This document shows, in pieces, positions 1 to 7,072 of a stretch of DNA of 64,000 nucleotides. The first letter of the stretch is position 1. Every line of letters begins with the position of its first letter. Below the pieces are notes generated by a model. The model searched no databases, was not told the DNA's origin, and was given only the letters and a program-made list of their open reading frames with translations. This stretch comes from Gloeomargarita sp. SKYG116 (GTDB lineage: Bacteria; Cyanobacteriota; Cyanobacteriia; Gloeomargaritales; Gloeomargaritaceae), in the NCBI GenBank assembly GCA_025056115.1, contig JANWVM010000002.1, positions 1 to 64,000 of the forward strand, read 5' to 3'. A program made the position numbers and the translations under genes.

Positions 1-1112
1 ACGCCCACATCCACTGCCGAAGTACTGATGACCAGCACGGGTTGGGGAGCATCCCGCAGCAGGGCTTGGGTCTCGGCGCGTTGTTGCCGGTCCATCCGCC
101 CGCTGATTTCCCGCACCAGGACACCTGGAAGCACAGCCTGTAACCGAGAAACCGCCTGCGCGGCCTGAGCAACTGAATTCAAGAGAACCAGCCCGCGTCC
201 AGCTCCTTCAGCCTGGAGATGTGCTCGGAGTAGGCCAGCGTTAGCCAGCAACCAGTCCAGCGCTTCCTGGCCCCGCTCCAGTTGGACAAACGCCAGTTCG
301 AGGCCTTGGGCAATCAGGCGATAGCCATCAGTTGGGACGCTCACACAGGAACAGGGGATGGTCTGAATGGTCCAACCCGTTTGTTGCAGGGAGACTTGAA
401 ATGCCGGCTTGGGGGTCGCAGAGGTAAACAAAAAGCGCCGGGGTCGTTGCTCACCCCGCAGCCGCCGAATCAGAGCCATGCCGTTGAGCACCGCCGCTTC
501 CTGGTGGGGGCCAAACAGATGAAATTCATCAAACACCCACAGGTCGGGAAAGTCTGCCAGTGCAACCGGAAGTAAATCGGCTCCATAGGCGGGGTCGCGA
601 TACCGAAAGTGGACCATGTAATGCAACAAATCGGGGTTGGTCAAAAGCAGGGGATAGTTCTGAATGGCCCCCGTCAACACGAGAAATCGACTGCTGTCTT
701 GCTGCTCCACCTGCTGGCTGAGTCGTTCGCCATATAGGTGCAGCGTCCACCGGTTGAAATCCAACCCAAACAACTGGTGCCAGTGCTCTAAACTCCGCGC
801 CTGGTCCTCGATGAGTTCGTTGGTGGGGTAACAGGACACCAAGCGCCAGCCCGGTTGCACCAGACTCAGGCCACAAGCGGCTAGGGTTTTGCCGGCACCC
901 GTTGGGGCGGTGTTAAACAGCACATCGGCATTCCCATCCCGCAGAGCGGCCCAGGTGTCGGCTTGATGCCGCAGCAAAGGACAGTTTCCCCCGGCCAGTG
1001 CGGCCAACTTTGGCGCTTGCGCCACCACCTGACACCGGTGGGCACATCCCAACGGGCAATCCCCAACGCCGGTGTTGAGTTGGGCATAGAGGGGTTGGAC
1101 AAACACTCGCAT
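1..1112 (-). CDS. cas3: Cas3-type CRISPR helicase, 5' part (cut by window edge)
   Basis: DExH superfamily 2 helicase-nuclease subunit recruited by Cascade to unwind and degrade target DNA. About 370 N-terminal residues are visible when the minus strand is translated from the ATG at 1112. Seen: a Cys-containing N-terminus (CPLGCAHRC, near residue 20), Walker A APTGAGKT near residue 80, a DEFH box, the SAT motif FTSATP, and a motif V-like STSAVDVG at the edge. There is no HD nuclease domain at the N-terminus, as in the cyanobacterial Cas3 of subtype I-D, where the HD domain sits on Cas10d. Subtype is inferred; the csc and cas10d genes would lie to the left. The divergent WYL regulator fits this context. 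Confidence 0.85.
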   Translation of the reverse strand, partial: MRVFVQPLYAQLNTGVGDCPLGCAHRCQVVAQAPKLAALAGGNCPLLRHQADTWAALRDGNADVLFNTAPTGAGKTLAACGLSLVQPGWRLVSCYPTNELIEDQARSLEHWHQLFGLDFNRWTLHLYGERLSQQVEQQDSSRFLVLTGAIQNYPLLLTNPDLLHYMVHFRYRDPAYGADLLPVALADFPDLWVFDEFHLFGPHQEAAVLNGMALIRRLRGEQRPRRFLFTSATPKPAFQVSLQQTGWTIQTIPCSCVSVPTDGYRLIAQGLELAFVQLERGQEALDWLLANAGLLRAHLQAEGAGRGLVLLNSVAQAAQAVSRLQAVLPGVLVREISGRMDRQQRAETQALLRDAPQPVLVISTSAVDVG

Positions 1113-1117
1113 GGTGC

Positions 1118-1130
1118 GTTACCTAGTAAC
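1118..1130. promoter_or_regulatory. Inverted repeat just upstream of cas3 (candidate operator)
   Basis: GTTAC-CTA-GTAAC is a perfect 5-bp inverted repeat with a 3-bp spacer, ending 6 bp from the cas3 start codon in the 50-bp gap between the divergent cas3 and WYL genes. Its position suits a repressor site. Binding by the WYL protein is inference. Confidence 0.4.
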
Positions 1131-1162
1131 CTATCCACAGCTTAGACCCATGACCGGAAAGC

Positions 1163-2137
1163 ATGTTGTCAAAAAATGACAATAACTACAATTCGCTAAA
1201 GTTCATTCTCGAACTCCTGCGGCTACTGGCTGAAAAGCCCCGGCGGCGGCAAGAGCTAGTGGTTGCTCTAGGGGACTTCTTGGAGGGTCATGGCCAATCA
1301 ACGGGCGACCTGGAGCAAAAAATTGTGCGAGTGATCCGGAAGCTGCGCGATTGCGGGTTCCAGATTCGCAGTGGTCCCCATCGCCCCTACGAGCTGGTAG
1401 CTTCGGCGTTTCCGGTGCTGCTGTCGGCGGAACAACGGCAAGCCTTGGCCTTGGGAGCTTACCTGCTGGAAACGCTAGGGTTTTCCCGGGAGGCGCATCA
1501 CGTGCTCCAGGTTGGGCGTTTACGTCCCGAGGACTTTCCCCCAGCCCTGAAGACTGATTTCAGCCCTCCGGTAGATTACAGCGAAGCCCACTACCAAACC
1601 ATCCGGCAGCAATTGGAAGAACGTATCCACCAGCGGCGGCGCTTTGCGATTGCCTATCGCCCGCTCCAGGGGGATGAGCGCCTCTGGGACTGCGATTGTT
1701 CGGAGCTACGGCTACACAACGGGGTTTTGTACTTGTTTACGTGGGTGCCGACGCCACCGATTTTCCTGCCGCGGCGCTTGCCTTCCCCCAGTGTCGAGGA
1801 GAACTTCACCTTGCGGGTGGACCGGATTGTTTACGTGGGTCCAGCATCCGGTACTCCCTGGCAACGGCGCCATTTCCCCACCCTCACCGTGCGCTATCGC
1901 CTGAAAGGTGAATTAGCCCGCTACCAACCCCGGCGCGCCTACGAGCAGGTGGTCGTGCAAGACCCAGATGGTCAGTTTGTGGAAATCAAGGCCAGTGTGG
2001 ATTGCCTGTTTTGGTTTCGCCAACGGTTATTGCAATACGGGGCCAACGCGCAGGTGCTCGAACCGGCCTGGTTAGCTCAAGACTTGCGCCAGGAACTGCA
2101 ACGGGCTTACCAAAGCTATGGCAATTTGTCGCATTGA
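1163..2137 (+). CDS. WYL-domain transcriptional regulator next to cas3
   Basis: 324-residue regulator. An N-terminal helical winged-helix region (about 10-75) ends at a beta-wing GPHRPYELV, followed by a WYL-type ligand domain (about 145-225) and a C-terminal WCX-like region. WYL proteins sense ligands such as nucleotides or nucleic acids and often control defence loci. In Synechocystis, the WYL-like protein Sll7009 is a reported negative regulator of the subtype I-D CRISPR system, so control of the adjacent cas operon is a reasonable inference. The ATG is preceded by GGAAAG. An inverted repeat covers codons 2-7, which suggests autorepression. The family call is firm; the target is inferred. 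Confidence 0.8.
   Translation: MLSKNDNNYNSLKFILELLRLLAEKPRRRQELVVALGDFLEGHGQSTGDLEQKIVRVIRKLRDCGFQIRSGPHRPYELVASAFPVLLSAEQRQALALGAYLLETLGFSREAHHVLQVGRLRPEDFPPALKTDFSPPVDYSEAHYQTIRQQLEERIHQRRRFAIAYRPLQGDERLWDCDCSELRLHNGVLYLFTWVPTPPIFLPRRLPSPSVEENFTLRVDRIVYVGPASGTPWQRRHFPTLTVRYRLKGELARYQPRRAYEQVVVQDPDGQFVEIKASVDCLFWFRQRLLQYGANAQVLEPAWLAQDLRQELQRAYQSYGNLSH
1166..1182. promoter_or_regulatory. Inverted repeat overlapping the WYL gene start (candidate auto-operator)
   Basis: TTGTCA-AAAAA-TGACAA is a perfect 6-bp inverted repeat with an A5 spacer, lying immediately after the start codon. A bound dimer here would block transcription or initiation of the regulator's own gene. Its arms differ from those of the cas3-proximal repeat at 1118. 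Confidence 0.4.
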
Positions 2138-2182
2138 CCAGGTCGAGGTATCCTTGTTACAGAGATCTTCAAGAGCTGTGTG

Positions 2183-2425
2183 ATGCGTGCAAAAGTTCAG
2201 CGCTGGGGCCGTAGTCTAGCCCTCCGAATCCCCAAAACCACAGCTGCTCAGCTCCGGTTAGCGCCCAAGACGCTTGTGGATATGCGGGTGGCAAATGGTT
2301 CTTTGGTGGTCACACCCCTAGTCCAATCGGATTGGACCTTGGCGGAGCTACTGGCAGGTGTGACTTCCGAGAATCGGCACGATGAAGTTGATATGGGTTC
2401 GCCTGTCGGTAAGGAAGTTTGGTGA
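2183..2425 (+). CDS. mazE: MazE-like AbrB-fold antitoxin
   Basis: 80-residue protein with the SpoVT/AbrB-type N-terminus of MazE antitoxins (VQRWGRSLALRIPK, followed by a second beta-strand pair and an acidic C-terminal tail that would wrap the toxin). ATG at 2183 is chosen; a GTG lies directly before it at 2180. It overlaps the downstream toxin start by 4 bp (GTGA), so the two are translationally coupled. MazE neutralises MazF and the complex usually represses its own promoter. The pair sits 45 bp behind the WYL gene. Confidence 0.88.
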   Translation: MRAKVQRWGRSLALRIPKTTAAQLRLAPKTLVDMRVANGSLVVTPLVQSDWTLAELLAGVTSENRHDEVDMGSPVGKEVW

Positions 2426-2763
2426 CAAGTTATGTACCAGACCGAAGAGATATTGTGTGGATTACGTTCAATCCTCAGGCGGGACATGAGCAGGCAGGGC
2501 GACGGCCAGCGTTAGTGATATCACCCAAAGCGTACAATGCCAAAGTAGGTTTAGCGTTACTTTGCCCTATTACCAACCAGGTTAAGGGATATCCATTTGA
2601 GGTGCAAATTCCAGCCGGGCTAAAGGTATCGGGTGTCGTGCTATCAGATCAAGTCAGAAGTCTGGATTGGCGCGTTCGACAAGCAGTGTTCAGTTGTAAG
2701 CTGCCTATCAAACCCTTCAACGAAGTCATTGCCAAACTGCAAACGCTCATTCGCGCTTTGTAA
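2422..2763 (+). CDS. mazF: MazF-type endoribonuclease toxin
   Basis: 113 residues with the PemK/MazF pattern: an N-terminal RRDIVWITFNPQAGHEQAGRRP loop bearing the conserved PxxGxEQxGxRPA signature, then the VLSDQVRSLDWR strand with the catalytic-region Ser-Asp-Gln-Arg. MazF cuts mRNA at short sequences when its antitoxin is lost. GTG start at 2422, with AAGGAAG at 2411 as ribosome binding site. The 3' 120 bp overlap the Trp-rich gene on the other strand. Confidence 0.9.
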   Translation: MTSYVPDRRDIVWITFNPQAGHEQAGRRPALVISPKAYNAKVGLALLCPITNQVKGYPFEVQIPAGLKVSGVVLSDQVRSLDWRVRQAVFSCKLPIKPFNEVIAKLQTLIRAL

Positions 2764-6024: not shown

Positions 6025-7072
6025 TCCCTAGTGCCTGCATCACCTGAGCGGTGGTCACTGGAAAGGGCAAACGGTGGATGTCGCTAGCGGGTTGACAAAT
6101 CCGTTCGGCAAGGACCCGGAGTTCGTCCGTGGGTAAATCACCCAAACCCAATTCTGCCAGTGTGCAGGGCAACCCAATTTGTTTGTACAACGTTAGTAAT
6201 TGCCCCCGAGCAATGCCCGCCAACCGATACCCCTGCATTTCCTCTAAACGCAATTGCACCAGGATACCAAAGGCCACCTTTTCCCCGTGCAACCAGCGAT
6301 GGGTCGCTGGCCAATAGGTCAACCCGTTGTGCACAGCATGAGCCGCCACTGTACGACAGGGAGCGCCACCGAGGCCCCCAACCAAGCCCGCCATTAACAC
6401 TGTGGCATCCACCACCTGTTCCCACACGTCGCTGCCCGGTGCTGTCAAGGCTGCCGTCGCTTTTTGCAAGAGGATGTCCCGCAGTACCCGCGCCTGCTGA
6501 ACCGCCATCACCACTGGTGTTTCGGCTGATTGCCCCGCACTGACGGACGCCTCGTACCACTTGGCCAGTGCATCTCCAATGCCGGCGACTAAAGTCCGTT
6601 GGGGAGCCGTTTGCACTAGGTCGTAGTCCAGGAGCAACCAAATTGGACACCGGCGCAGCGGTACATCGTACTGGAAAGCTCCCATTTCGGAATAGATGTT
6701 GCTGAGGGCTGTCCAGGCCGCACAAGTTGCCCCTGACGTGGGGATGGTCACCACTGGTAAATCACAGTCGTGGGCCACCAGTTTTCCCATATCCAGGGCT
6801 TTGCCGCCGCCGCAGGCCAACACGCCATCAATTCGCTCAGTCGTTACTCGTTGTCCCAAAGTACGGCGCAGGTTCTCGGTGCATTCCTTGACGGCGACCG
6901 CCTGCACCGGATAAATCCCTGCGGCCTGTAACTGGGGTTGCACCAGCGATAGCGACGTTTGGCCCCCCACCAGCAACCAGCGTTGGCCAAGAGAGCGCAG
7001 CTGGTGGCCGTATTGACTGAGTAACTGCCGTCCCCGCAACACTCGCCAGGGCGCTACCAGTAATTCCGACAT
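5981..7072 (-). CDS. Iron-containing alcohol dehydrogenase family protein (glycerol-dehydrogenase-like)
   Basis: 363 residues with the GldA-type layout: N-terminal nucleotide-binding domain with CGGGKALDMGK (about 95-105) and the IPTSGATCA loop, then the helical metal domain with GIGDALAKWYE and two later histidines (VAAHAVHNGL and HRWLHGEKVAFG) matching the Asp/His metal ligands. It probably oxidises or reduces a small polyol or carbonyl with NAD(P); the substrate cannot be told. It precedes ycf51 on the same strand with an 11-bp gap reading from ycf51 into it. Confidence 0.85.
   Translation of the reverse strand: MSELLVAPWRVLRGRQLLSQYGHQLRSLGQRWLLVGGQTSLSLVQPQLQAAGIYPVQAVAVKECTENLRRTLGQRVTTERIDGVLACGGGKALDMGKLVAHDCDLPVVTIPTSGATCAAWTALSNIYSEMGAFQYDVPLRRCPIWLLLDYDLVQTAPQRTLVAGIGDALAKWYEASVSAGQSAETPVVMAVQQARVLRDILLQKATAALTAPGSDVWEQVVDATVLMAGLVGGLGGAPCRTVAAHAVHNGLTYWPATHRWLHGEKVAFGILVQLRLEEMQGYRLAGIARGQLLTLYKQIGLPCTLAELGLGDLPTDELRVLAERICQPASDIHRLPFPVTTAQVMQALGTTTQAWPPQTAPVG

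Follow-up and report, generated by a model that had tools for sequence, protein, structure and literature searches.

A conserved palindrome ahead of cas3 as a probable operator of the WYL regulator in cyanobacterial subtype I-D CRISPR loci

A stretch of 64,000 nucleotides from Gloeomargarita sp. SKYG116 (contig JANWVM010000002.1; hereafter the window) was found to carry a palindrome at positions 1166-1182 whose location ahead of the subtype I-D cas3 gene is conserved in other cyanobacteria and whose sequence is unique in its genome. There is good reason to regard this palindrome as the core of a 27-bp operator, at which a bound dimer of the neighbouring WYL regulator would control the start of the cas operon, with the unliganded form most likely repressing it. 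The position of the site, its spacing and its conservation were read directly from the loci compared below.

Two inverted repeats between cas3 and the WYL gene

The cas3 gene of the window (Cas3d, subtype I-D; 3..1112, minus strand; PADLOC Cas3d, E 2.8e-128) runs leftwards from an ATG at 1112 and is cut off after its first 370 codons by the end of the contig, base 1 of the window being base 1 of the contig. Only 50 bp from it begins a divergent gene for a WYL/WCX regulator (1163..2137, plus strand; Pfam WCX, PADLOC WYL) that belongs to the ortholog group of Sll7009, with approximately 50% identity to that protein. The window therefore shows the arrangement that defines the WYL regulators associated with subtype I-D, a WYL/WCX protein divergent beside a I-D cas3. 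Genes cas10d and cas7d were found in genomes G003 and G004, and were not found in the assemblies of the window's genome or of its nearest relative, G001, both of which break inside cas3, that of G001 at the end of contig C35. A second, partial copy of the WYL gene was observed in G001 at the start of contig C22, and a pair consisting of a MazE-like antitoxin and a PemK/MazF-like toxin lies directly downstream of the WYL gene in the window (2180-2763).

Both inverted repeats of this region are perfect, as the original prediction had stated, and each occurs once in the window. The first, GTTACCTAGTAAC (GTTAC-CTA-GTAAC, 1118-1130), lies 5 bp from the start codon of cas3, where 6 bp had been given, and the second, TTGTCAAAAAATGACAA (TTGTCA-AAAAA-TGACAA, 1166-1182), covers codons 2-7 of the WYL gene, as had been described. 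Taken by itself, symmetry says little in favour of either of them, because shuffled sequences and the window itself often yield such repeats. Dinucleotide shuffles of 1101-1200 gave at least one repeat with an arm of at least 5 and a loop of at most 5 with a probability of 0.29, one with an arm of at least 6 with a probability of 0.08, and both with a probability of 0.027, while the window holds a total of 230 repeats with an arm of at least 5 and a loop of at most 5.

Alignment with related gaps, which the original prediction had called for, separated the two. The regulator is also encoded in three of six further genomes of the same genus, with 96, 74 and 57% identity. The second repeat is unchanged in the 96% relative and differs little in the other two (TTATCAAAAAATGACAA and TCATCAAAAAATGATAA), whereas the first is broken even in the 96% relative (GTTACCTATAGCC) and absent from the two others. 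The first repeat was thus rejected as a conserved operator; it is probably a chance occurrence and probably not functional. It had been suggested that the two repeats serve as operators for two different factors, and the perfection of both speaks for this, but with the GTTAC repeat lost in this way, and with such a repeat arising in 29% of shuffled 100-bp stretches, the suggestion is now very unlikely to hold. Conservation of the second repeat within the genus is confounded with that of a peptide, MxSKNDN.

Conservation and promoter geometry of the second palindrome

In the 2.37 Mb genome of the window there is a single exact match to TTRTCA-N5-TGAYAA. A scan of genome contigs with a single protein as query returned no relative, and with an alignment as query it returned 13 loci. 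Most counts exclude G001, which nearly duplicates the window locus; five stretches (L031, L060, L065, L057, L062) were duplicates of class loci, and a further six without cas3d on the stretch (L055, L058, L059, L063, L085, which is the same stretch as L058, and L087) were scanned apart; no convincing site was found near the WYL gene in L055 and L063.

In other cyanobacteria the motif was found at cas3, 52-59 bp from its start codon, even where the WYL gene lies hundreds of bp farther away. When TTRTCA-N5-TGAYAA-N21-TAN3T was scanned for in 170 bp, the best match lay 68-75 bp before the cas3 start, measured to the far end of the core, in 23 of 26 loci, the exceptions being G230, Adonisia and G183 (a tandem copy). 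Shuffling gave p<=0.016 in 22 of the 26 loci and p above 0.05 in four. None of the 34 loci of another Cas3d clade had its best match at 66-76 bp from cas3; this second clade (approximately 31% identical; L112, L141, L142, L143 and similar) lacks the operator and often has a distant WYL gene of its own nearby (22-28% identity).

A 27-bp position weight matrix (PWM), applied with relatives held out, gave its highest score in the entire locus to a site 45-54 bp from the cas3 start in 23 of 25 divergent loci; in the remaining two (G230, and G183 with its tandem copy) the highest score fell elsewhere in the gap. The best score among 48 control loci was 12.6, and true sites scored below this maximum in G003 (8.1) and Adonisia (9.1) when their own group was held out, and also in G231 (10.5). 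The site of the window, itself part of the training set, scored 28.5 against 4.8 for the next best match in the window. With Synechocystis and PCC 7002 left out of training, positions 6299-6325 of pSYSA scored 20.3, the next best match in 100 kb scoring 10.1. The consensus over 48 promoters is TTATCA-N5-TGATAA. In the window the extended operator (11-5-11) spans 1161..1187, with flanks that are conserved across loci and only the 6-bp arms pairing perfectly. In G183 (L052 / L093) the cas3 promoter region is present as a tandem duplicate, with two operators approximately 70 bp apart and a truncated WYL gene.

The arms of the palindrome were found to change in step between lineages (TTGTCA/TGACAA, TTATCA/TGATAA, ACATCA/TGATGT), the last pair being coding in G117 and noncoding in G280; Adonisia has strongly drifted arms, GCCA/TGGC. 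Pairing beyond column composition was significant at positions 3, 5 and 8 from the centre and not significant at positions 4 (nearly invariant), 6 and 7, in an analysis for which the sites of G230 and Adonisia were placed by eye. In many loci, G347 among them, conserved outer arms give a palindrome of 11-5-11.

The core follows immediately on an ATG, and so forms codons 2-7, in six of the 26 loci (the window, G001, G003, G004, G117 and Sphaerospermopsis). Whether the site lies inside the reading frame is unsure in Kovacikia, G164 and G231. On the WYL tree this trait needs four changes, with Kovacikia and G231, whose starts are unsure, scored as having it. In compact loci the gap is about 50 bp, so that the WYL gene starts inside the operator; residues 2-7 of the protein of the window, LSKNDN, are the translated operator. 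In the predicted structure residues 1-9 have a pLDDT below 50 (disordered) and the first helix begins at residue 11. Sll7009 is without the N-terminal peptide, and its site lies before its start codon.

These observations bear on whether the palindrome could simply result from conservation of the N-terminal peptide SKNDN. The peptide is conserved in the genus, and given LSKNDN and the codon usage of 11 ORFs of the window, a perfect 6-5-6 palindrome arises with P = 0.027. The motif is, however, noncoding and still with cas3 in loci where the WYL gene starts 80-1800 bp away, and the N-terminus is predicted to be disordered and is missing from Sll7009. The noncoding copies led to the rejection of a peptide-driven palindrome, which is scarcely credible. 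An RNA hairpin in the WYL message was rejected by reasoning, as the site is outside that message in many loci.

Since the site stays with cas3 when the WYL gene is hundreds of bp away, it is primarily an element of the cas3 promoter. An operator in the first WYL codons, as originally predicted, is upheld as a conserved site, and gives way, in view of the fixed distance to cas3, as an element that would mainly serve WYL autorepression.

A putative -10 box for cas3, TAAGCT (1139..1144, minus strand), which matches TAN3T, lies 21 bp from the operator and was assigned by sequence only. When sites were picked by the operator alone, 20 of 22 loci had TAN3T at a distance of precisely 21 bp, and no other spacing between 8 and 32 occurred in more than five of them. 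The same spacing was found in all of 23 new loci from one family, representing 21 distinct promoters and picked by the 27-bp PWM alone; the core started 70-75 bp before the cas3 start in 22 of them and at 153 in one. This new set was taken from 30 of 34 cas3 matches after exclusion of two loci already used for training (G335, G356), one without upstream DNA (G365), one without a findable cas3 start or a WYL gene, which showed no site (G460), and three that were apparently already in use, having the same promoter by eye (G434, G441, G564).

With the first T of the -10 box counted as -12, the core falls at about -50 to -34. Reckoned from this putative box, the second palindrome is an operator of the cas3 promoter centred near -42. 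At normal spacing the match to a -35 element is weak, averaging 1.35 of 6 at 17 bp in the new loci. The arrangement described for DriD, a site over the -35 position at a constant distance from the -10 box, was thus also found here, again with a -10 box that is putative.

The WYL protein as candidate binder of the operator and the sign of control

We infer the bound protein, and the effect of its binding, from co-occurrence and two natural swaps, which point to the dimer of the neighbouring WYL protein as the most likely occupant of the operator. One locus (G377) combines the Cas3 type of the window with a foreign WYL protein and is without the site, and another (G230) combines the WYL type of the window with a foreign cas3 and keeps both operator and TAN3T, each swap being a single case. 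In G142 (L087), cas3 is reduced to a stub of 15 codons with a stop, and the WYL gene and operator are intact, with TAN3T 21 bp on by eye; a frame downstream of the stub resembles Cas7d (Csc2), again by eye only. The earlier suggestion that one of the repeats might serve the WYL dimer agrees with these findings, the second repeat being very probably the regulator's own. Binding by some other cyanobacterial factor appears improbable, as the site goes with the WYL type in both swaps, has second copies near WYL genes and is unique in the genome of the window, which argues against a broad regulon.

Strong second sites were found 45-55 bp upstream of the first aligned WYL codon in G246, G347 and G335 (3 of 10 loci with a gap above 300 bp), overlapping a TATAAT-like box by eye in G246 and G335, and Dolichospermum 259 has a weaker second site in the ORF. 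As such sites are present in few of the wide-gap loci, cas3 would be the constant target and self-control optional. The tight autorepression originally predicted is therefore retained as plausible autoregulation of WYL, secondary to the control of cas3, whose promoter is the fixed target.

Two further observations concern the extent of the regulon. In G004 a second strong operator (L077:12560-12586, score 25.0) lies approximately 0.9 kb beyond the WYL gene and adjoins genes for a PD-(D/E)XK nuclease and a long Argonaute (PAZ), which may be part of the WYL regulon in that genome. On pSYSA no operator site was found at the leader promoter of the CRISPR1 array, and direct control of this array was rejected for that reason.

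In the mechanism proposed here, the WYL dimer would occupy the 27-bp operator over the place of the -35 box, 21 bp before the TAN3T -10 box, and would thereby decide whether RNA polymerase starts the cas operon. In compact loci such a dimer would also cover the start of its own gene. In the window the operator supplies the opening codons of the WYL gene, read as LSKNDN within a leader predicted to be disordered, and transcription of that gene would consequently be hindered as well. The unliganded regulator most likely represses cas, following the published knock-out: in a 2023 review, deletion of sll7009 is stated to have raised mature crRNA, and Sll7009 is described as a negative regulator. 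The rigid spacing suggests that the regulator may also activate when liganded.

Repression is retained as the base case; ligand-dependent activation is an alternative to be taken seriously, favoured by the fixed spacing and the missing -35 element, contrary to the knock-out result. A regulator that is mainly an activator, binding over the missing -35 element and recruiting polymerase to cas3 in the manner of DriD or of NtcA at class II promoters while repressing itself, is a real possibility, although not the preferred one. The invariant 21-bp spacing to TAN3T and the poor -35 element are consistent with it, as are the published DriD sites, which cover part of the -35 and keep a fixed spacing to the -10, and the published NtcA sites near -41.5 with TAN3T. 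Furthermore, in structure the WYL protein comes closest to the activators PafBC and DriD, with CapW and BrxR ranking behind them, but TM-scores are low; a sequence search of solved structures gave no match. The raised crRNA of the sll7009 deletion, as cited in the review, also weighs against it.

Beside repression by the unliganded form, we tentatively put forward a possible two-way switch of the DriD kind, in which the unliganded I-D WYL regulator would hold cas3 down and the liganded form would activate a promoter without a -35 element from -42, the operator having been recruited as the first codons of the regulator. Its ligand would perhaps be single-stranded DNA, by analogy with DriD, PafBC and CapW. 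If this were so, the switch site and the N-terminus of the regulator would evolve as one sequence in compact loci.

Comparison with known systems

According to the 2023 review, how the I-D regulator controls expression is an open question. No mapping of this operator was found in the parts available to us of the open-licence literature on Sll7009/WYL, CRISPR type I-D and cas3 promoters. The present analysis offers an exact model of operator and promoter in about 49 loci, that of Synechocystis 6803 among them, casts doubt on "negative regulator" as the whole story, and describes a regulatory DNA site that opens the gene of its own regulator and is read there as protein.

At NtcA class II promoters, a palindrome near -41.5 is likewise combined with a TAN3T -10 box. 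NtcA is, however, an unrelated regulator of the CRP family with the site GTAN8TAC, from which the consensus over 48 promoters differs. BrxR, the WYL repressor of BREX phage defence, resembles the present case as a WYL regulator of a phage-defence locus with an 11-bp inverted repeat and a 5-bp spacer; outer arms are conserved in many of the loci compared here, but in the window perfect pairing is confined to the 6-bp core. The BrxR site differs in lying downstream of its promoter, 51 bp or more before brxR, and the BrxR paper reports no significant similarity of BrxR to Sll7009. DriD, the WYL/WCX activator of Caulobacter, is described in a preprint and is alike in that a dimer binds a palindrome which covers the -35 and keeps a fixed spacing to the -10. 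It differs in its site, ATACGAC-N7-GTCGTAT, and in its target genes, which concern DNA damage, and has approximately 16% identity to the WYL protein of the window in structural alignment. The closest counterpart is Sll7009 of the Synechocystis 6803 I-D locus on pSYSA, an orthologous regulator divergent from cas3, with operator and TAN3T at the same position and its own site upstream of the start codon instead of inside the gene; for this locus the model predicts the site at pSYSA 6299-6325 and the cas3 start near 6354.
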